Part shown: one piece after another, positions 33,890 through 48,837 of the stretch | Numbering within the stretch: the stretch's first letter is position 1 | How the letters are laid out: each line of letters starts with the position of its first letter | From: Canibacter oris | Lineage (GTDB): Bacteria; Actinomycetota; Actinomycetes; Actinomycetales; Microbacteriaceae | Direction: 5' to 3' | DNA: 64,000 nt | Assembly (NCBI RefSeq): GCF_014197205.1 | Contig: NZ_JACIFD010000009.1 | Coordinates: forward strand, 1-64,000 | Notes under the pieces: generated by a model | Databases searched by the model: none | What the model was told of the DNA's origin: nothing | The model's input: the letters and a program-made list of their open reading frames with translations, nothing else | Made by a program: the position numbers and the translations under genes

Positions 33890-36800
33890 GTGTGGAGTCT
33901 ATTTGGGCGCGGAAAGAACGATGCTGACAAGCATCAAGCCGCAGAAGCAGCAAGTGAAAACGAGCGTGAGCTAGCAGCGGAGACCCCTGCGGAGCAGGTG
34001 ACCGCTGGCTATCCGCGCGCCGACGTTGCAAAGCAGTATGATGCTGCCCCCGCGCAGTCGGAGGCTGAGACTATTGCGGTGCCGGAAGAGGCCCTCGCGG
34101 CAGCGCAAGACGAGCGGCGCCGTACCGCGGCACCGTATTCGACAGAGGGTTCTGCGGCGGCAATGGCGGGTCACGGTGCGGGTGCATCTCATCCCGAAGC
34201 TGCACGGGAAGCGGCACCGGGAACCGGGCGGGAAGCGGCACAGGAGCCGCAGAAAATCGCCCCTGATTTCAGCGAGATTCACGCTAAATGGCGGGAAGCA
34301 ACCAAAAAGCTTGGCGGCTACAACCCGCTGCTACACTTTGACGACGAGGCGCAGAACCGCATTGACTTTGCTGCCACCAACCCTGGCGGGCTCGCGCAGT
34401 TCATCACCGGGCAGAAAATCTTGCTGTCAGCGCTGGTGCGAGATGAGGTGGCGCTGCGCAAAGCTAAGTTTGCGGCGGGGCGGATCACCGACAAAGCAAC
34501 AGAAATGCGCAACATGCGCGGGCTGGAAACCGTGCATCTAGGTATCGGGCTGGCTAAATGGCGCTTCGAGGGTGACGATTTTTGCGCCCCCGTGTTGCTG
34601 CGCCCGCTCGCGATTCGCCGTTATGGTCGCGATTTCGAAATTAAACTTAAGGGCGGGGTTAGTGTCAACCCTGAGCTGGTGCGGGTGCTGCGGCTCCAGT
34701 ACGGCATCGCTGTTGACGCGCGCAGCCTGGTTGAACTGTCGCAGGTTGAAGGCGTGTTTAAACCGCAGCCGGTGATTGAGCGACTGCGTCAAATGGCAGC
34801 TGGTATTCCAGAATTTTCGGTGGAGCCGCGCCTAGTTGCTTCCTCTTTCAACAGCATTGCTGCACGGATGCTGAGCGATTTGGTAGACTTAGACACTCCG
34901 CTGCTGCGGGCAATCTGCGGCGACAGTGACGACCGTGCCGCGATCCGCACCGCATATCATCCGACTACCCCGACACCGCTTGATCAGCGCTCGCCGGAAA
35001 CCGACACCTACCTCTACGACGCTGACGTGGAGCAGGATGATGTCATTACCCAGATTCGTAACGGGTACTCGCTGGCCGTGCACACTCTGCCCGGAACCGG
35101 CGGCACACAAACCGTGGTTAACGCCATCGGGGAGCTGGTGCGGGACGGCAAAAAAGTGCTGGTGGTGTCACCGCGCACCGCAACTCTCGACGGGATTTCA
35201 CACCGCTTAAACCGTGCCGGGCTGACCGGGCTCGTGACTACGCCGCGCAAGTTGCGCCGTAACCTGGTTGACGCGATCAGCCGCAACGAGCAGGCGCAGC
35301 CGGTTAATAACAGGGAGATTGATCAGGCGCTGACGCGGTTGCGCAGCGTGCTGGTTGATTACCGCGAAGCGCTAGACGCGAAAGACGCGAAGCTTGGTAT
35401 TTCACCGCTTGAGGCGCTGCGGGAGCTGGCTAAACTGTCACTGCTGCCAGAACCGCCAGGCACCACCGTGCGGCTGAGCGAAACCGCGCTGCACACCCTG
35501 GCGATGGATCGCAGCAGTGTCACCGAGCTGCTCACAGAGGTAGCGCGCCTCGGGCAGTTCCAGTACGGGCCAGAGGATTCACCGTGGTACGGGGTTACCT
35601 TCGGCACCACCGAGGAAGCGCGCGGGGCATACACGAGCGCAGTGGAAATCTCGGAGACACGCTTGCCGCGGCTGACCGCGCTGGCGCACGAACTGCTGCA
35701 GCAAACCGCACTGAAGCCATACGAAAACCTGTACGAGCTCGGCATTTACTTGCGGCTGCTCACCGGCATCGGCGAAACCCTCGACCGTTTCACTCCGGAA
35801 GTGTACGACCGCTCCTTGACCGAGGTCATTGCGGCGCACGCTCCGCGTTCCACCGGCGACACGATGACTAACGCCAACCGGCGCCGCCTGAAGAAGCTTG
35901 CGCGCGAGTATGTGCGCCCGGGCGTCACGATCACCGATATGTATCCGCGCTTGGTTGAGATTCAGCAGCAGCGAGTGTTGTGGCAGCGCTACTGCACCGT
36001 GCCTGGCACGCGGCCTGAGCTGCCGTTGGGTCTTGCAGAGGTGGTTACCGCATTCCAAGGTGTGTATGACGAGCTAGAGACTCTCGATCGGGTTTTGGGC
36101 ACTGAGCAAGAGGCAGCCCGGATGCGCAACCTGCCTCTGGCGCAGCTTAGTAAGCGGGTTGCGGCGCTCGCCGAGGAGAGTGAAGTGCTGCAAAATATTC
36201 AGGAGCGCACCGCCATCATTGAGCGGTTGCGAGATGCTGATTTGGGGGCGCTGTTTGACGATCTCTCTAAACGGCATGTGCTCGCAGAGAATGTTGCCGC
36301 AGAGCTGGAGCAGGCGTGGTGGCAGACAGCGCTGGAGCGAATTCTTGCCGAGAATCCGGCGCTGCTTGGCGCTAACAGTGCGGTGATCGAGCGGCTGGAG
36401 TCTGATTTCCGGCTGGTTGACGACGCCCACACCAGCTCTAACGGGCAGGTGTTAGCCGCACAGCTGGCTGATCTGTGGCGGGTTGCGCTTATCGATAATC
36501 GTGCTGAGGCTACCGAGTTGCGCGGTTTGCTGCGCAGCGGGGGTGCGGATCCGGCCTCCCTGGTTGCTGCTGCACCAAATCTGACGCGCTCCCTGGCGCA
36601 TGTGTGGGCGGTGAGCCCGTACGAGGTTAGTCTGTTGCCGCAGGAGCTGAAATTTGACGCGGTGATTCTGGTTGATGCCGCAGCTGTCAGCTTGGTGGAG
36701 GCGCTCGGGGCGCTGCGTCGTGGTGGGCAGGTTGTGGCGTTTGGCGATCCGGTGGTGCAAACCCCGGCAGACTTTAACATCGGGGTTAGTGACGCTGATT

Positions 36801-38386
36801 ACATCACCCCGGATGTGCCGCTTAATGCCGCCGAAACCACTGCTCCGCTGAGCGTCTTTGCTGCGCTCACTAAGGTGCTGCCGCAGTTGACGTTGACGCG
36901 TAGCTACCGTGCCGGCGGCGCCGATCTTACCGACCTCGTGAACAGCAAGTTCTACAGCGGTGCGATTGAAACCATGCCGTGGGCGGGCACCTTCCTGGGG
37001 CGCTCCAGCCTGACGCAGGAATTTGTGCGCGCCGGGCAGGGGCTGCCTGACCAGCAAACCGGAGCGGTTGAAAGCACCGATGCTGAGGTAGAGCGGGTTG
37101 TGCAGCTGGTGCTCGAGCACGCCAGCGAACGGCCGAATGAGTCGTTGATGGTGATTACCGCGAGCAAAAAGCACGCGGTGCGAGTGTGGCAGTCGACCCT
37201 GAGTTACTTTGCGAAATTCCCGCAGTATCGTAATTTCTTGCTCGGCGATCACGCGGAGCCGTTCACCGTGGTAACCCTGGAGCAGGCGACCGCGCTCAGT
37301 CGTGACCGCGTGATTTTCTCCATCGGTTACGGGCGTACGCCGCACGGGCGAGTGCTGTCTAACTTTGGGCCGCTATCGCAGCCTGGCGGTGATCGACTGA
37401 TTGCGGTCGCGATGACTAGGGCACGACGAGCGATGACCATCGTGAGCTGCTTTGAGGCGGAACATCTGGCAGAAGTTAAAGCACGCTATGGTGTGAAGCA
37501 GCTCGCTGGTGTGATTGGTGCTGAAGCGAAACCTGTGCCAGAAAGCCAGCTCCCGGCTGAGCAGGACCCGATGATTGCGGAGCTGGCGCAGCGCCTGGAA
37601 GGTCTAGGGCTGCAGGTGGCGCTGAACTATCAGGGTGTGATTCCGATTGCCGCGGCGCTCGGGGAGCGAGCCATCGCGATTGATATTGATTTCAGCGGTG
37701 GTGAAGAGTCGATGCGGCATATTTTGCGGTTGCGTCCGGCGGTGCTGCGGCGACTCGGCTGGCACTATCAACGCATCCAAAGCTTTGACCTGTTCCAGAA
37801 CCCTGCCGAGGTAGCGGTGCGAGTTGCGAGCATTATCGGTTACGACCCGGCGGCTGCAGCTGTTGAAAAAACAGCGAATATCACCGAGCAAGGGTTGCAA
37901 CTGTCAGACGACGAGCACAACATGACCCAGGTGATTGAACCGCTGCCGACGGCGTCCCAGCGAGCCGCAGGCGGCGGTGTCGTGCAGCCGGTGATGTTGA
38001 ATCCGGGAGAGCTGGAGGTCAGCGCTACGGTGTCTGCAGATGAGCCTGCGGCTGCCGAAGCGCAGGATTTCGCTGCAGAGCCGGAGGCGGAGCCTGCCGT
38101 GCTGGAGGTCACCGATGCTCCGGAGGGCAGCAGCTTTGACAATGGCAACGTAATTTTGGTGGTGGATCCGGAAGACCCGCAAGATTCGGGCAAGGCTGTC
38201 GTGCTGGCGCGTGAAACCCAACTGGAGTTGGAACTGCCGGAAGCTGAAACCGAGGCGATTGCGGAGCCAGCAGCAGCGGATGCTGCTACCGCACCGGGTG
38301 AAGCGGAGGCTGAAACTGATACCGAGCAGAGCGCTGCCGCGTCAAAAAAAGCAGCGGGTGATGATGACGCAACCACCGCAAGATAA
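33890..38386 (+). CDS. Very large SF1 (Dna2/Upf1-like) helicase relative with degenerate ATPase motifs and C-terminal nuclease-like fold
   Basis: 1,498 residues. The N-terminal 130 are Ala/Glu-rich and low in complexity. Residues about 130-380 resemble the domain preceding helicase cores in DUF4011-type proteins. The helicase core starts near residue 388. Walker A reads LPGTGGTQT (about 400) where active relatives have GPPGTGKSQT, so the catalytic Lys is absent. Walker B reads VILVDAAAV (about 925) where DEA is expected, and motif III reads GDPVVQTP. Motif IV (RSYRAGG) and motif VI (VAMTRAR) are kept. Residues about 1225-1325 (AIDIDFSGGEE... RRLGWHYQRIQSFDLF) match the restriction-endonuclease-like domain that ends similar helicases, again with weakened acidic residues. 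GTG start 33890. Probably a DNA-binding scaffold. Confidence 0.75.
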   Translation: MWSLFGRGKNDADKHQAAEAASENERELAAETPAEQVTAGYPRADVAKQYDAAPAQSEAETIAVPEEALAAAQDERRRTAAPYSTEGSAAAMAGHGAGASHPEAAREAAPGTGREAAQEPQKIAPDFSEIHAKWREATKKLGGYNPLLHFDDEAQNRIDFAATNPGGLAQFITGQKILLSALVRDEVALRKAKFAAGRITDKATEMRNMRGLETVHLGIGLAKWRFEGDDFCAPVLLRPLAIRRYGRDFEIKLKGGVSVNPELVRVLRLQYGIAVDARSLVELSQVEGVFKPQPVIERLRQMAAGIPEFSVEPRLVASSFNSIAARMLSDLVDLDTPLLRAICGDSDDRAAIRTAYHPTTPTPLDQRSPETDTYLYDADVEQDDVITQIRNGYSLAVHTLPGTGGTQTVVNAIGELVRDGKKVLVVSPRTATLDGISHRLNRAGLTGLVTTPRKLRRNLVDAISRNEQAQPVNNREIDQALTRLRSVLVDYREALDAKDAKLGISPLEALRELAKLSLLPEPPGTTVRLSETALHTLAMDRSSVTELLTEVARLGQFQYGPEDSPWYGVTFGTTEEARGAYTSAVEISETRLPRLTALAHELLQQTALKPYENLYELGIYLRLLTGIGETLDRFTPEVYDRSLTEVIAAHAPRSTGDTMTNANRRRLKKLAREYVRPGVTITDMYPRLVEIQQQRVLWQRYCTVPGTRPELPLGLAEVVTAFQGVYDELETLDRVLGTEQEAARMRNLPLAQLSKRVAALAEESEVLQNIQERTAIIERLRDADLGALFDDLSKRHVLAENVAAELEQAWWQTALERILAENPALLGANSAVIERLESDFRLVDDAHTSSNGQVLAAQLADLWRVALIDNRAEATELRGLLRSGGADPASLVAAAPNLTRSLAHVWAVSPYEVSLLPQELKFDAVILVDAAAVSLVEALGALRRGGQVVAFGDPVVQTPADFNIGVSDADYITPDVPLNAAETTAPLSVFAALTKVLPQLTLTRSYRAGGADLTDLVNSKFYSGAIETMPWAGTFLGRSSLTQEFVRAGQGLPDQQTGAVESTDAEVERVVQLVLEHASERPNESLMVITASKKHAVRVWQSTLSYFAKFPQYRNFLLGDHAEPFTVVTLEQATALSRDRVIFSIGYGRTPHGRVLSNFGPLSQPGGDRLIAVAMTRARRAMTIVSCFEAEHLAEVKARYGVKQLAGVIGAEAKPVPESQLPAEQDPMIAELAQRLEGLGLQVALNYQGVIPIAAALGERAIAIDIDFSGGEESMRHILRLRPAVLRRLGWHYQRIQSFDLFQNPAEVAVRVASIIGYDPAAAAVEKTANITEQGLQLSDDEHNMTQVIEPLPTASQRAAGGGVVQPVMLNPGELEVSATVSADEPAAAEAQDFAAEPEAEPAVLEVTDAPEGSSFDNGNVILVVDPEDPQDSGKAVVLARETQLELELPEAETEAIAEPAAADAATAPGEAEAETDTEQSAAASKKAAGDDDATTAR

Positions 38387-38567
38387 CACCGCTGCTGCGT
38401 CAGCCCCCGGGAAGCGGCAACCACGTCGTGCGCAGCGGCTCAGCAACGCTATCCCCGAGAGCGTAGCAACCCCTCAGAGTCTGCGCCCGCAGGAGCCACG
38501 AAAGGCAACGAGAGAAGACACCGTCTACCAGCGTTATCTGCGTGACAAACCGCCGCACTGGGGATAA
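38364..38567 (+). CDS. Small basic protein following the helicase-like gene
   Basis: 67 residues from ATG 38364 (a second ATG at 38361), Pro/Gln/Arg-rich with a conserved-looking end ATREDTVYQRYLRDKPPHWG. It overlaps the 3' end of the helicase-like gene by 23 bases in another frame, so it is probably translated with it. No family recognised; its role may be linked to the large protein. Confidence 0.6.
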   Translation: MTQPPQDNTAAASAPGKRQPRRAQRLSNAIPESVATPQSLRPQEPRKATREDTVYQRYLRDKPPHWG

Positions 38568-38691: not shown

Positions 38692-39090
38692 TTAGTGCTG
38701 CTTCTGTGCGAGCAGGTCGCGAATCTCGGTGAGCAGCTGCTGCTCGATTGGAGCTGGCTCTTCGGTCTCTTCAACCGCTGCCTTAGCTGCCTGGCGCTCC
38801 TTCATTTTGTTCATTGGAACTACGAAGACGAAGTAAACCACTGCTGCAACCAGCAGGAAGTTGATTACTGCGCCGATTACCGCACCAAACTGCAGGGCTG
38901 CACCGCCCGGAAGTTCCACGATGAGGGCACTGTCGAGCGCGTCAGCCTTGAAGATAGCGCTAATCAGAGGGTTGAAGATTGACTCCACAACCTTCGTCAC
39001 AATCGCGTTGAACGCAGCGCCAATCACAACAGCCACTGCCAGCTCAATCACGTTGCCGCGCATGATGAAATCTTTAAAACCATTAAGCAT
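38692..39090 (-). CDS. mscL: Large-conductance mechanosensitive channel
   Basis: 132 residues. The N-terminal helix MLNGFKDFIMRGNVIELAVAVVIGAAFNAIV is the MscL pore helix, and the second helix (INFLLVAAVVYFVFVVPMNK) and the charged C-terminal bundle are present. It opens under membrane tension to release solutes. The upstream 230 bases hold many TGTGC/GCACA words and may be a regulatory region. Confidence 0.95.
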   Translation of the reverse strand: MLNGFKDFIMRGNVIELAVAVVIGAAFNAIVTKVVESIFNPLISAIFKADALDSALIVELPGGAALQFGAVIGAVINFLLVAAVVYFVFVVPMNKMKERQAAKAAVEETEEPAPIEQQLLTEIRDLLAQKQH

Positions 39091-43864: not shown

Positions 43865-44380
43865 ATGGCGACGAAGGAAGCTGCGGTACTTGACCTTCAG
43901 AAGAAGTTCGAAGAGTCAAACGCCGTCCTGCTGACAGAGTACCGTGGGCTCAGCGTAACCGCTATGCGCACTGTGCGTAGCGCGATTCGCGAGCACGCGA
44001 CGTACGCCGTGGCGAAGAACACCCTGACCAAACTTGCTGCAAACAACGCAGGCATCACCGAGCTTGACGAGTACTTCACCGGTCCAACCGCTGTAGCATT
44101 CGTTTCAGGTGACACCGTTGCTGTAGCAAAGGGTCTACGTGACTTCGCTAAGGCAAACCCTCAACTGGTGATCAAGGGCGGCTACTTCGATGGCAAGCCA
44201 CTTGACGCTGCTGAGGTAAACAAGCTTGCTGATCTGGAGAGCCGCGAGGTCCTGCTGGCGAAGGCTGCAGGTGCTATGAAGGCGAAACTGTTCAGCGCTG
44301 CTTACATGTTCAACGCACCAGCTTCGGGCCTTGCTCGTGCTGCCGGCGCGTTGCGCGACAAGCAAGAGGCTGCAAACTAA
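43865..44380 (+). CDS. rplJ: 50S ribosomal protein L10
   Basis: 171 residues. N-terminal RNA-binding domain with VLLTEYRGLSVTAMRTVRSAIR and VAKNTLTKLA; the C-terminal helix binds the L7/L12 dimers encoded by the next gene. Start ATG 43865 after AGGGAG. Preceded by its own autoregulatory leader. Confidence 0.97.
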   Translation: MATKEAAVLDLQKKFEESNAVLLTEYRGLSVTAMRTVRSAIREHATYAVAKNTLTKLAANNAGITELDEYFTGPTAVAFVSGDTVAVAKGLRDFAKANPQLVIKGGYFDGKPLDAAEVNKLADLESREVLLAKAAGAMKAKLFSAAYMFNAPASGLARAAGALRDKQEAAN

Positions 44381-44473
44381 TTTAGTTTGCTTCCCCAAAA
44401 TCATTTAAATTGCTCGTTTACGCGGGCGAATCCACACCATAAGGTGTTGGGGTGAAAATCAAGGAGAAACAAA

Positions 44474-44857
44474 ATGGCTAAGCTTTCAACTGAAGAGCTT
44501 ATCGAGCAGTTCAAAGAGCTGACCCTCATCGAGCTGAGCGAATTCGTTAAGGCATTCGAGGAGACCTTCGAGGTTTCAGCTGCTGCTCCAGTTGCAGTTG
44601 CTGCTGCTCCAGCTGCTGGTGGCGACGCTCCAGCTGCTGAGGAGAAGGACTCATTCGACGTTATCCTCAAGGGTGCAGGTAGCTCAAAGATCGCTGTTAT
44701 CAAGGCAGTGCGCGAGCTGACCAGCCTGGGCCTGGGCGAGGCAAAGGCACTTGTAGAAGAGGCTCCAAAGCCAGTTCTTGAGGGTGCTAAGAAGGAAGAT
44801 GCAGAGGCTGCAAAGGCTAAGCTGGAAGAGGCTGGCGCTGAGGTAGAGCTCGCATAA
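44474..44857 (+). CDS. rplL: 50S ribosomal protein L7/L12
   Basis: 127 residues: N-terminal dimerisation helix pair ([24 protein letters not shown]), Ala-rich hinge (about 40-60) and globular C-terminal domain ([24 protein letters not shown]) that recruits translation factors. AAGGAGA lies before the ATG. Followed by an intrinsic terminator. Confidence 0.97.
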
Positions 44858-44880
44858 CTTCTGCGACGCGAAAGCATTTT

Positions 44881-44910
44881 AAGACCGGGGTCTTTAGGCC
44901 CCGGTCTTTG
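44881..44910 (+). terminator. rplJL terminator
   Basis: Perfect 10-bp stem AAGACCGGGG (44881-44890) / CCCCGGTCTT (44899-44908), 8-nt loop, then TTG. Confidence 0.85.
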
Positions 44911-45074
44911 CTATGGCCGGTGATGTAACAGCAGTTGCAGCAGGAAACTGCTTGATTTACAGTCGAGTGTATAAAACTATTACGCTGTATCGGCTCTGCA
45001 TCACTTCAATGATTTAAGGGGTTTAGTGCAGCGCAAAATACGGGCGTGATTAAAAGTCCTAGGGAGTTGGGAAA

Positions 45075-45716
45075 ATGTTTTTTAATCTGGTGCAGCTGGT
45101 TGTGGTTATCGGCCTGCTTTATGCTATCGGCCGTTTAACATACGGCGGGGTGGGAAAAATCGATAACGGAGGCAAATATAAATTTATAAACTCTTTAGTG
45201 CAACTGTTGTGGATGTTTTGCATTAACGGGTTTGTTTTTGCGTTATTGGCCGTGTTTGCAGTTATCTTACTAACTCTTTACGATTTCTTGAGCACCCCGG
45301 AATCTTATCAGGATATCGCTGGTGGCGGGCAGATTCTTGAAAACGCTATCGGGAGTTTCCCCGGAGGGGCTTTTTTGCTGACGCTATTAATTCTGATTTT
45401 TGCTACAGCAATCGTTACTTTTTTGGGTCGCAAGAAAATTCGTCGTCGAACCGATAAGTGGCAGCTCAACGAGGAGGGCTACGAAATCGGCGAGTATTTT
45501 ATTCAGTGGATCACTATTTACCTTGCCGTTTACCAGTTCTTCTTTGACGGTTTGCAAGATTTGATTGCGCTTGCGGTAACAGCTGAAACCGCGAAAGAGG
45601 TATTTGACATTGCGCTGTCGCCACGAAACATTAACCTGATCGCGCAGCCGGTTTTGATTTCTACCTGGATTTTAGTGGTGATGGAAAAACTGCGGCTGCG
45701 TAATAGTCAGCAGTAA
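45075..45716 (+). CDS. Unknown membrane protein
   Basis: 213 residues with about five hydrophobic segments (2-22, 45-72, 98-118, 143-165, 190-206) and a basic cytoplasmic loop GRKKIRRRTDKW. Richer in A and T than the core genes around it. ATG 45075 has AGGGAG upstream. No family recognised. The 3' end overlaps the convergent next gene by 56 bases. Confidence 0.6.
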   Translation: MFFNLVQLVVVIGLLYAIGRLTYGGVGKIDNGGKYKFINSLVQLLWMFCINGFVFALLAVFAVILLTLYDFLSTPESYQDIAGGGQILENAIGSFPGGAFLLTLLILIFATAIVTFLGRKKIRRRTDKWQLNEEGYEIGEYFIQWITIYLAVYQFFFDGLQDLIALAVTAETAKEVFDIALSPRNINLIAQPVLISTWILVVMEKLRLRNSQQ

Positions 45717-46161
45717 ATAACGTAGTGTTGCGTTTCAGCGCTTTGCGTTCTGTGTGTAACACATGGCAGCCCCAAATTGCCATCCATGTTGGGGCAAAAG
45801 GAGTTGCAAGCATAATCACAATAATTATCGGAAGGTTTAACGCTAAAGGATATGCATAGATGCCCAAAAACCATATGACGCCTTCAGGGTATGCCAGCAA
45901 AGGCAGAAAAATAAACCTGTAGGTGAGTAAAACACGAGCCCATGAATGGCGGGACTGCATGTTGCCCAGCATCACTAGCCAAAAAACCGTGTGCAAAAAA
46001 TTGAGCGGTAGAATATCTAAAATATTTTCTGGTGTGTGTGCGAAACTATTGCGAACAAGAGCGTTCATAACAAATCCAGCTGCTATCCCGACGCTGCTTG
46101 CAACTATGTCTGCGGCGCTGATTTTGTCAAGGACTTTCTGCTTAAACCAAGTTGACAACAT
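45661..46161 (-). CDS. Unknown membrane protein
   Basis: About 166 residues from ATG 46161, two bases after the stop of the upstream secreted-protein gene, suggesting coupled translation; a TTG at 46218 would extend it by 19 residues. Four or five hydrophobic segments, no family recognised. Its pairing with the secreted protein upstream could mean an immunity or export partner, but that is conjecture. Confidence 0.5.
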   Translation of the reverse strand: MLSTWFKQKVLDKISAADIVASSVGIAAGFVMNALVRNSFAHTPENILDILPLNFLHTVFWLVMLGNMQSRHSWARVLLTYRFIFLPLLAYPEGVIWFLGIYAYPLALNLPIIIVIMLATPFAPTWMAIWGCHVLHTERKALKRNTTLFTADYYAAAVFPSPLKSR

Positions 46162-46163
46162 TG

Positions 46164-47495
46164 CTAGTGCACGTTCCCCTGATATGTTTTCTTGCAGTGT
46201 GGAAAGTGGATTAGACAAGTGTAATTTGGGCTGCCGAAGCTAAAAACCTTTTGGAAAACTTGTTGTCCAAAGGAATTAATAGTTTTAGAACCGTAGGCTT
46301 CATGATTTGGAACGCCAAAATGGCTACCATTTGCTGCGACCATTCCAAAACGCCAAATTTGTACGGTTTCTTGATATGCGATACTGCCTAATGAGCAAAA
46401 AGGGTTACCAACGGAGTGATTAATTTCAAAACCTGAAGCCCCGTTGTTTGACCACAGGTTGTTTACCGCAATCCCTGCATCGCTCGCGGTTCTGGTTTCA
46501 ACCACGACGCCATTCTCCAGCTTTTTAGTTGCGCCGACACTTTTGAACCAATAAATTCGTTGATTGATTGGGTTATGCCAGTTAGATAAAACTTTGATAG
46601 CTGTGCGGTGTGGTTGGAAAACCCACGGATTAGGAGTTATATCTCCTCGATTGTCTCCGGAGAAGGTTGTAGAGTTGTTGCACCCTATTTCTCCGATGAG
46701 ATGAGGCTCAATGGTGACAGTGTCAGTGGGTATATATGTTAGATGTACCCAAGAGCCTAACGGAGAGTCATGATATGGCACTGACGAAACATCAGGTTTT
46801 ATAATATGTTCTTCGCTGAGCGTGGGTGCATCAAAACTGAGGCTGATAAATTCAGGTTCTTTAATTAAATCTAGTGATGCAGAGGTGTCTATCTCGGTGT
46901 TAGCTGACGGTTTGACAGTATTTGTCGTGTCAGGTGAGGAATTCTGAAGGTGCCCCTGCAACTTAAAAGTGTGGTGGCTTCCGGGAGCTAGATTATTGAC
47001 TGTGAGTTCGTTGTTGTGCAGCTTTTGTCCCGTGTTTGTGTCTTCATAGACGTAACCCTCTTTAAAATCGTCAGAGATTCTGATTGTTACAGAATTTTTT
47101 GTTGACATAATCGCAACGAACGGTGTTCTTTCGAAATCTTCTGCTGCGGGTGTTATATCAAAACCAGTTGTTGATCCGAAAACCACTGTGTTGCCTTGCG
47201 CATCGACTACCGGCGTTGTTTCGGTGTAAGTCATCTTCGCGGTTTTGTTTTTCGAAGAAACCCATTCTAGAGTCAGCAGCAATCCGATTTCTCCGGAGTC
47301 GTTGCGGACGTAAAATAAAGATTGCCCAACTTCTTCGCGAGACGACAAAATCTCAACCGGGTTGTTAGTGCTATCTACAACTTTAAATCCCTGACCATCT
47401 TGCACAATTTGAAAATCAGGCGACTCTTCTTGATGGACTAAAAACAGAGACAGTAGAAAAGAAGTGAGCGTAATCATAACAGTCTTCTTTAACAT
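46164..47495 (-). CDS. Secreted protein, possibly DUF3238-like, unknown function
   Basis: 443 residues from ATG 47495, chosen for the AAGGAG site 7 bases upstream. Signal peptide MLKKTVMITLTSFLLSLFL. The first half is a Thr/Asp-rich beta-type region. The second half has FSGDNRGDITPNPWVFQPHR, a central beta region and an ending ANGSHFGVPNHEAYGS, resembling DUF3238 secreted proteins. Three or more Cys in the second half may form disulfides. Lower GC than the core genome suggests acquisition. It heads a two-gene unit with the membrane protein downstream. Confidence 0.6.
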   Translation of the reverse strand: MLKKTVMITLTSFLLSLFLVHQEESPDFQIVQDGQGFKVVDSTNNPVEILSSREEVGQSLFYVRNDSGEIGLLLTLEWVSSKNKTAKMTYTETTPVVDAQGNTVVFGSTTGFDITPAAEDFERTPFVAIMSTKNSVTIRISDDFKEGYVYEDTNTGQKLHNNELTVNNLAPGSHHTFKLQGHLQNSSPDTTNTVKPSANTEIDTSASLDLIKEPEFISLSFDAPTLSEEHIIKPDVSSVPYHDSPLGSWVHLTYIPTDTVTIEPHLIGEIGCNNSTTFSGDNRGDITPNPWVFQPHRTAIKVLSNWHNPINQRIYWFKSVGATKKLENGVVVETRTASDAGIAVNNLWSNNGASGFEINHSVGNPFCSLGSIAYQETVQIWRFGMVAANGSHFGVPNHEAYGSKTINSFGQQVFQKVFSFGSPNYTCLIHFPHCKKTYQGNVH

Positions 47496-47670
47496 ATGAA
47501 AGCTCCTTGTATTTGAACAACGTCTTGTGGAATAAAATATCAAACTGAAAAAATTGCTGTCAATAGAAACTTATTTCTCACTCTGATTAGACCCACTGTT
47601 GTTAGCGGTTTTGAAGCTAGGGGAGCAGGGTGATTTGGCTGTTAGGTGTTAAACCCGGTAAAGTTGTTGT

Positions 47671-47762
47671 TGCTCCTCATGTGACGCAATCTTGGTTAAC
47701 CCCCCCAGGGCGGAAACGCAGCAAGGGTACCTGAGCTCTTGCGGGTGCGTGAGGAGCTTTTG
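47671..47762 (+). ncRNA. ffs: Signal recognition particle RNA (4.5S, small bacterial type)
   Basis: About 90 nt. Terminal stem GCTCCTCA (47672-47679) / TGAGGAGC (47750-47757). The apical part contains the conserved Ffh-binding loop CAGGGCGGAAACGCAGCAAGG (shown in part as GGCGGAAACGCAGCAAGG). It runs into CTTTTTGC, an apparent terminator. It scaffolds Ffh for co-translational membrane targeting. Confidence 0.93.
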
Positions 47763-47894
47763 CTTTCTAACTGCCCGCCATGTGCAATGTAGATTATGGC
47801 TTCGGGGTTATTGTTGCAATATAAAGTGTTTTGATGTACCATTTCGTTAACTCACTTAGAGGCAATGAGTGAGGAAGTTCAAAGGAGGACTAAA

Positions 47895-48440
47895 ATGAAA
47901 AAAATATTTGTTTTAATTTTCTCCGCACTCTTTGTGCTTACGCCTTTAGCAGCTTCGCCGACTTATGCAACAGAGACAGGTGTAGACGAAGCACATGAAT
48001 CAAGCGAGACTGGCTATGCTGGAGAAACTGGTCGTGTCCATGAACCATCAGCACCGCTTCCAGTAACGACATATCAGGTTGTTAACGTGAGTTCTTGGTC
48101 AGGCGCTAATTTCAATCAAAGGTATTTCGCTTGTAGTGCTGGATCACACGGCGTAACATGCGGTAATCATGTTGCGTTTAGTGCAACACGATCAATTGAA
48201 TTGGCGTTGGGGGCGAATTGGGGTACAACTGCATCTCAACTCGGTATCTCTTCATCTAGTGCCCAGACGGTCACTGGAAGTTGTACCAGAACACTTGCGC
48301 AAGGACAAAGATTAGTGGTCTATCCTTACGGTACATGGAAGCGCTATCAGATTAAGAAAACCACTTCACGCGTGGGTTCAACCACGAGTGGGTATTTATA
48401 CGCCTTTGACCCTTGGGGCATTCACTGCGTAGTGGAGTAA
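47895..48440 (+). CDS. Secreted Cys-containing protein, unknown
   Basis: 181 residues from ATG 47895 with an ideal AAAGGAGGA site. Signal peptide MKKIFVLIFSALFVLTPLAA(S)PTYA. Four or more Cys (CSAGSHGVTC, SCTRT, IHCVVE) suggest disulfides. The segment SIELALGANWGTTASQLGISSSSAQTVTGS... and the Tyr-rich VVYPYGTWKRYQIKK look like small secreted beta-proteins of Gram-positives; no name is justified. Co-directional with the next gene, 4 bp apart. Confidence 0.65.
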   Translation: MKKIFVLIFSALFVLTPLAASPTYATETGVDEAHESSETGYAGETGRVHEPSAPLPVTTYQVVNVSSWSGANFNQRYFACSAGSHGVTCGNHVAFSATRSIELALGANWGTTASQLGISSSSAQTVTGSCTRTLAQGQRLVVYPYGTWKRYQIKKTTSRVGSTTSGYLYAFDPWGIHCVVE

Positions 48441-48444
48441 CATC

Positions 48445-48837
48445 ATGTGGAGAAATATACCTATATTTGCTGGCTTACTACTCGGCTTGAGTGTTCCGGG
48501 GTGGAGCGACCCGGTTAATCCGGCGCAACAGTTAGGGATTACAACTGATGCATCCTGGTACATTGAACAGCTCGGTGTAGAGAATGTAATCATCTATGAT
48601 GTCACAGAGCAGGTGTACGGCGAGGATTACAAGAATTATCTTGACCCCGAAGGACGCATGTTTATGACCATAGTTGTGCAGTGTGAACCTGACGAAAATG
48701 GTATCGTGAAGCTGGGTATTTCTCGATCCGGTCTGCCACTGCCCTATTCATCGCAAGAAATTTACAGCAGGGAGTTTCGCGAAACCTCTTCAAAGTGGAT
48801 TCCTCACTGTAAACCATTGCTGGAACCTAAAAGATAA
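48445..48837 (+). CDS. Exported protein, unknown
   Basis: 130 residues with an N-terminal signal (MWRNIPIFAGLLLGLSVPGWS), two Cys (VQCEPDE, PHCKPL) and no known domain. GGAG overlaps the upstream stop region. Probably co-expressed and functionally paired with the secreted protein before it. Followed by a terminator. Confidence 0.55.
   Translation: MWRNIPIFAGLLLGLSVPGWSDPVNPAQQLGITTDASWYIEQLGVENVIIYDVTEQVYGEDYKNYLDPEGRMFMTIVVQCEPDENGIVKLGISRSGLPLPYSSQEIYSREFRETSSKWIPHCKPLLEPKR

Follow-up and report, generated by a model that had tools for sequence, protein, structure and literature searches.

The closest described relatives of the gene reported here are large superfamily 1 (SF1) helicase-nucleases of the Hhe, ProA and PDC-S37 kind (NF042953, NF058533; PDLC02194, PDLC05009), whose models span 1550–1911 positions and share the order DUF4011, AAA_11, AAA_12 and Vsr-like restriction endonuclease (REase). 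One report on Pseudomonas aeruginosa (PMC10250203) presents a DUF4011 gene as a core flank of a defence hotspot, and another (PMC3710099) has the MTES_1575 nuclease named from a Microbacterium protein in which transglutaminase, SF1 helicase, Vsr REase and HEPN are fused. Judged by its length, that protein is probably closer to the long paralogues described below than to the gene studied here. Among the titles and abstract openings surveyed, we found no account of the actinobacterial group to which the gene belongs.

The gene lies in the window, a 64,000-nucleotide stretch of a Canibacter oris contig, and its features are on the forward strand unless stated otherwise. An open frame with a GTG start runs from 33,890 to 38,386 and encodes a protein of 1498 residues (hereafter the giant), in agreement with the intact 4.5-kb frame of the initial annotation; the genome that carries it measures 1.65 Mb. 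The domain order is DUF4011, SF1 helicase and Vsr-like nuclease. Pfam recovered DUF4011, AAA_11, AAA_12 and the MTES_1575 REase in the expected order, each below its own cut-off, including DUF4011 at residues 190–266 (34,457–34,687; 21.0 bits against 22.2) and the Vsr-like REase at residues 1259–1314 (37,664–37,831; 21.9 bits against 38.2), and all four exceeded their cut-offs in the canonical orthologues L233 and L082. With these sub-threshold matches, the giant fits the domain order of the DUF4011 SF1 helicase-REase superfamily (Hhe/ProA/PDC-S37 in the wide sense), and the endonuclease-like C-terminal fold that had been noticed from the sequence is recognisable. NCBIfam scores of 301 bits for ProA (cut-off 1500) and 144 bits for Hhe (cut-off 2000) place it outside strict membership of either family; PADLOC gave 326 bits for PDC-S37 and 119 bits for Hhe. 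The closest matches among named records came from a Microbacteriaceae MAG, Leucobacter sp. OH1287 and Canibacter zhoujuaniae. With the giant as query, its own genome yielded one giant-like match and no second family member. The AAA_12 profile matched nothing anywhere in the genome, the giant included, so weak relatives would escape that search. Elsewhere in the window, positions 44,000–48,500 have lower GC (0.43–0.49) and small open reading frames, and adjoin a ribosomal-protein-like gene (named by eye).

The motor motifs of the giant are degenerate in the manner first proposed. Walker A reads PGTGGTQT (residues 401–408; 35,090–35,113) where canonical orthologues have PGTGK[ST]QT, the alignment placing glycine at the lysine position, and no other GxxxxGK[ST] was found anywhere in the protein, a separate intact P-loop having been named as evidence against the idea. 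Walker B (VILVDA, residues 925–930; 36,662–36,679) aligns without gaps to the canonical xxFDEA, FDAVILVDAAAV in the giant against FDVVVFDEASQV; Val stands in for the canonical Asp and Asp for the canonical Glu, which leaves a single acid. A remnant of motif III, FGDP, lies at 36,740–36,751, with the next Gln lost. Motifs IV and VI were said to be recognisable and are: SYR (36,902–36,910) keeps its arginine, which is present in 42 of 42 family orthologues, and TRARR (37,415–37,429) keeps both, the first present in 39 and the second in all 42. An active SF1 helicase has the Walker A lysine and the Walker B Asp-Glu pair, and the giant has Gly and Val-Asp at these positions; by its sequence, the motor is dead.

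The nuclease domain has also lost residues. An active Vsr-like or PD-(D/E)xK enzyme has an active-site Asp and Glu; in the 42 Microbacteriaceae orthologues the first Asp is absent throughout, and the second position holds Glu in 30 sequences, Asp in 11 and Gln in one. Both acids are replaced throughout families f3, f4, f9, f10 and f14. Both are present in 12 of the 152 orthologues, six with the Walker A lysine (two in f5, three in f18 and one in f45) and six without it (L080, L210 and L211 in f7, L168 and L169 in f16, and L209 in f15), indicating that loss of the motor and loss of the nuclease are not tied to each other. By the same residues, the f7, f16 and f15 proteins are possible nucleases with a dead motor.

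An AlphaFold2 model of residues 130–1329 (mean pLDDT 87.3, pTM 0.75) predicts a core with the Upf1-like SF1B fold. Its best structural match was Ighmbp2 (Z 20.4, 4.1 Å over 496 residues), accompanied by Dna2 (Z 20.3, 4.8 Å, 506 residues) and Upf1 (Z 20.2, 5.8 Å, 498 residues); matches to the Upf1 family, including Senataxin, had Z scores of about 18–20, the top ones over about 450–510 residues. The orthologue profile also reaches SMUBP-2 (1.6e-12). Inside the first RecA-like domain, the secondary structure of the model places a large helical insertion of about 430 residues (residues about 470–901; 35,297–36,592; limits drawn by eye).

To follow the lysine across relatives, 152 orthologous loci were tabulated, 145 from the order and seven from other families of the class. 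Family codes run from f1 to f82, and f1 was taken as Microbacteriaceae, four named loci matching the statistics of f1 genomes (for example L003 and L059, Canibacter zhoujuaniae). In a first alignment of 74 rows, made up of the window and 73 loci with some genomes entered twice, none of the 73 rows holding the region had the lysine, the region being missing from L072. The P-loop was readable in 144 of the 145 order orthologues, the exception being L085, the only f13 row, which starts later. The lysine is absent from 138 of these, spread over 18 families, and present in six, namely two in f5 and four of the seven in f18. Among the seven class orthologues from outside the order, it occurs only in that of f45, with arginine in five f38 rows and the f25 row. 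All 42 Microbacteriaceae orthologues that were read lack it, bearing out the description of the giant as a pseudo-helicase; the position holds Gly in 31, Ala in three, Ser in two, Tyr in two, and Arg, Leu, Val or Ile in one each. Both Walker B positions are Asp in f16. The motif IV Arg has been lost in f3, f4, f9, f10, f14 and f20, where the P-loop frame is also frequently disrupted. Beyond the class, GPPGTGKSQT is retained by each of three relatives that span the profile wholly or for the most part (L275, L276 and L277). The last of these canonical relatives, L277 (genome G313), falls into two frames, the first with DUF4011 and helicase sequence and the second with helicase and nuclease sequence.

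Phylogenetic analysis placed the canonical rows near the base of the tree. A FastTree phylogeny of 130 rows, in which f1 was represented by 17 of its 42 rows, three fragments were dropped and six paralogues added, needed four changes of lysine state, and an IQ-TREE phylogeny of 44 rows needed two with free reversal. If the lost lysine, Asp, Glu and Gln are assumed never to return jointly, the 44-row tree implies at least about three separate losses of the motor: one in f25/f38, another inside f18 and a third where the large clade begins. The deep branches of the orthologue tree are long and uncertain. The initial annotation had reasoned that orthologues with canonical motifs would mark the giant as a decaying copy. 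Canonical orthologues do exist (two in f5, four in f18 and one in f45), but the degenerate forms are old conserved groups and not decaying copies.

The distribution of the gene follows descent. An orthologue is present in 43 of 43 Microbacteriaceae genomes (36 in the first set, the giant's own included, and seven added), 42 of them read as loci; in G025 the gene is split over contigs. Across the order, 117 of the 119 genomes sampled gave a match, and by profile 116 have an orthologue, 111 read as loci and five by profile match alone (G067, G070, G075, G086 and G127). Only a fragment, beside a paralogue, was found in G065, and the profile detected no orthologue in G091 (62% complete) or G105 (92%). 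Profile A3, built from 29 rows that include 22 of the 152 scored loci, gave 670–1526 bits for orthologues and 327–410 bits for seven long paralogues. Very small genomes keep the giant, including G018 (0.93 Mb) and G088 (0.8 Mb). Beyond the order, full-length relatives have a patchy distribution: they occur in 7 of 92 class genomes, five of which are all the f38 genomes sampled and only one of which (G196) has a canonical copy. Of 73 genomes from outside the class, 3 have such a relative, canonical in every case. On the tree, family labels change 22 times, against a possible minimum of 21.

To gauge selection, dN/dS was estimated (Nei-Gojobori) for close pairs of relatives and lay between 0.027 and 0.257 in 26 of 27 pairs, one pair being saturated and L067–L068 nearly so. 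Degenerate pairs ranged from 0.027 to 0.234, whereas the two canonical pairs had the highest values, 0.250 and 0.257; the window's own gene enters no pair, its nearest relatives being too distant (64–70% identity). Together with order-wide presence and descent, these values support the proposal that the gene is maintained for some purpose. In the 42 Microbacteriaceae orthologues, P-loop columns lie at the 82nd–97th percentile of conservation and the lysine column at the 37th. Of the 60 best-conserved columns in the 103 non-canonical rows outside this family, 2 fall in the P-loop segment, where its length would predict 4.7, and 20 in the helical insertion, where 22 would be predicted. Mean conservation is nearly level across six regions (0.35–0.41), the insertion being lowest, so no one region is marked as the site of a retained function.

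The small protein that the initial annotation described as coupled to the giant is real, but it is not specific to the giant. Its 67-residue frame (38,364–38,567) overlaps the giant's by 23 bases and ends in a PPHWG tail (38,550–38,564), and MscL (38,692–39,090, reverse strand; Pfam 125 bits) is the convergent neighbour. A general form of the tail pattern occurs at 135 of 149 evaluable loci, in 111 of them no more than 1.2 kb downstream and in 24 as part of a fusion with the C-terminal end of the giant; at the other 14 it was found neither within 1.2 kb nor fused. Three of the 152 loci end too soon to be scored. Elsewhere, 2.5 million codons held four other matches, three of which resemble the same protein displaced. 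The stricter PPHW form occurs at 116 of 152 orthologue loci and at none of the seven paralogue loci. The fused or separate state changes 11 times on the tree, which suggests a functional link between the giant and the small protein. The fourth tail residue varies by lineage (PPHW, PPHY, PPHF or PPHH), variants having been seen in L111–L115, L172, L173 and L176, among others, and in L254, L255 and L259. A tail match elsewhere in the genome (E up to 0.1) was found in 9 of 11 genomes in which the tail was missing beside the giant or the stretch had ended. The tail profile gave no match at E up to 0.1 in G018 or G088; in the latter, a PPHF variant may adjoin the giant (L219). In a model of a natural fusion, L068, the tail had a pLDDT of only about 37–50, and therefore we claim no docking pose.

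We had considered that the small protein might be dedicated to the giant, and dropped the idea on finding it in class genomes that lack the giant. The tail profile matched 55 of 98 class genomes (six of the 98 belong to the order) at E up to 1e-3, and 86 at E up to 0.5, a threshold at which chance matches are expected. Within 15 stretches around such matches, mscL lay near the tail in seven, six of them from genomes without a full-length giant. Three of the 15 stretches (L271, L272 and L274) belong to genomes that have a giant in another place, and a search for the tail pattern in the L274 stretch gave no match. These occurrences without a giant, six of them near mscL, indicate that the small protein is an older neighbour that predates the pairing, and the fusions may accordingly reflect mere adjacency. 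A small protein ending in PPHW or PPHH(G), with a DD/DE..GWG(E/D) motif, was seen near mscL in L261, L263, L265, L266, L268 and L269. Proteins of this kind occur class-wide, even where the giant is absent, and gave no Pfam match (three examples) and no NCBIfam match (two examples).

Of the 152 orthologue loci, mscL was found at 85, in every case downstream, on the opposite strand at 80 of them and on the same strand at five. The gene was found at none of the seven paralogue loci and at 11 of 44 named loci. It had no match at f10, f12, f15 or f20 loci even where there was room, some other loci ending too soon, and in f4 and f8 it was present at only four and three of eight. Neighbour clusters were drawn from 196 loci (the 152 and the 44 named). 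The wide clusters all lie downstream, covering 148, 139 and 54 loci, with mscL in the largest; the widest multi-family upstream cluster covers 16. Cluster members were named by eye, in part, and names such as SAF, fmdB and moeA are of this kind.

The reading we favour, with a probability of roughly 0.55, is that the giant is a domesticated, motor-dead relative of Hhe and PDC-S37 that has become a core gene of the order and now acts as a nucleic-acid-binding clamp or scaffold with the small protein. A DUF4011 SF1B helicase-nuclease ancestor of the same kind as Hhe, ProA and PDC-S37 would have been fixed as a core gene of this actinobacterial order, usually upstream of the small-protein gene near mscL. 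Its ATPase would then have been lost at least about three times, while the Upf1-like body, the DUF4011 domain, the helical insertion of 430 residues and a nuclease fold that is largely broken were kept. Because the residues that burn ATP are lost, yet nearly all sampled members of the order keep the gene, the protein is probably a passive, non-catalytic clamp or scaffold, which may hold DNA or RNA without turnover. It would be made together with, and sometimes fused to, the small protein ending in PPHW(G) or a close variant, and the two probably act jointly. A bolder version, which we regard as tentative, is that the order as a whole depends on an essential or near-essential motor-dead helicase-nuclease, taken from a defence-type family and disarmed on several independent occasions. 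As a static nucleic-acid clamp, it would use the PPHW(G) tail to hold or display an ancient small protein, making it a new core chromosome or RNA factor of actinobacteria. If the favoured reading is true, a defence-type helicase-nuclease has turned into a core gene while losing its motor repeatedly under strong selection. Active-looking (f5 and f18) and dead orthologues could be compared directly, and the pairing points to an uncharacterised small protein conserved well beyond the order.

A role in DNA repair or defence had been suggested initially, and the nearest named families are defence ones, so that the giant might still be an anti-phage sensor of the Hhe/PDC-S37 type whose motor is unneeded or borrowed. 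Its scores, however, fall far under the curated ProA and Hhe cut-offs, and it is near-universal in the order and follows descent, whereas it is its relatives outside the order that are patchy; we consider this reading unlikely. We are about as doubtful of a subunit resembling RecC or AddB, that is, a dead helicase-nuclease that scans DNA in complex with a separate active motor. RecC and AddB use a dead SF1 motor and a dead nuclease domain as a scaffold or scanner, a logic the giant shares, but the RecB/RecC fold is UvrD-like where that of the giant is Upf1-like, and a partial reading by eye recognised no motor gene among the conserved neighbours.

It is conceivable that the altered P-loop, even without its lysine, still binds a nucleotide or switches on one, and the strong retention in Microbacteriaceae of the other P-loop columns and of the motif IV and second motif VI arginines is consistent with this. 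Six families (f3, f4, f9, f10, f14 and f20) have lost the motif IV Arg and often have a disrupted P-loop frame, so a function common to the order cannot need nucleotide binding of this kind, and we rate the idea slightly below the two preceding ones. That the giant is simply a gene on its way out would accord with the canonical orthologues in f5, f18 and f45. Decay is nevertheless ruled out for practical purposes by the intact frame, by dN/dS values of degenerate relatives that lie below those of canonical pairs, and by near-universality that extends to every family genome and to very small genomes.

The favoured reading, a domesticated clamp or scaffold, can be set against known systems. The giant shares its domain order with Hhe, ProA and PDC-S37, at 119–326 bits, but it is shorter than their models, near-universal in the order, motor-dead and situated upstream of a PPH-tail protein; the seven long paralogues (L102–L108; 1999–2154 residues) carry GPPGTGKSQT, unlike the giant. 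Deinococcus radiodurans PriA, a pseudohelicase according to the title of one report (PMC4504706), likewise belongs to a helicase family, but it is a different helicase with a role in replication restart. RecC and AddB resemble the giant in combining a dead SF1 motor with a dead nuclease fold and differ in belonging to another SF1 branch, the giant having no known motor partner. The Upf1-like SF1B helicases (Ighmbp2, Upf1, Dna2 and Senataxin) share its predicted fold, from which the giant departs in lacking the catalytic Lys and Asp and in adding the helical insertion and the Vsr-like nuclease domain.
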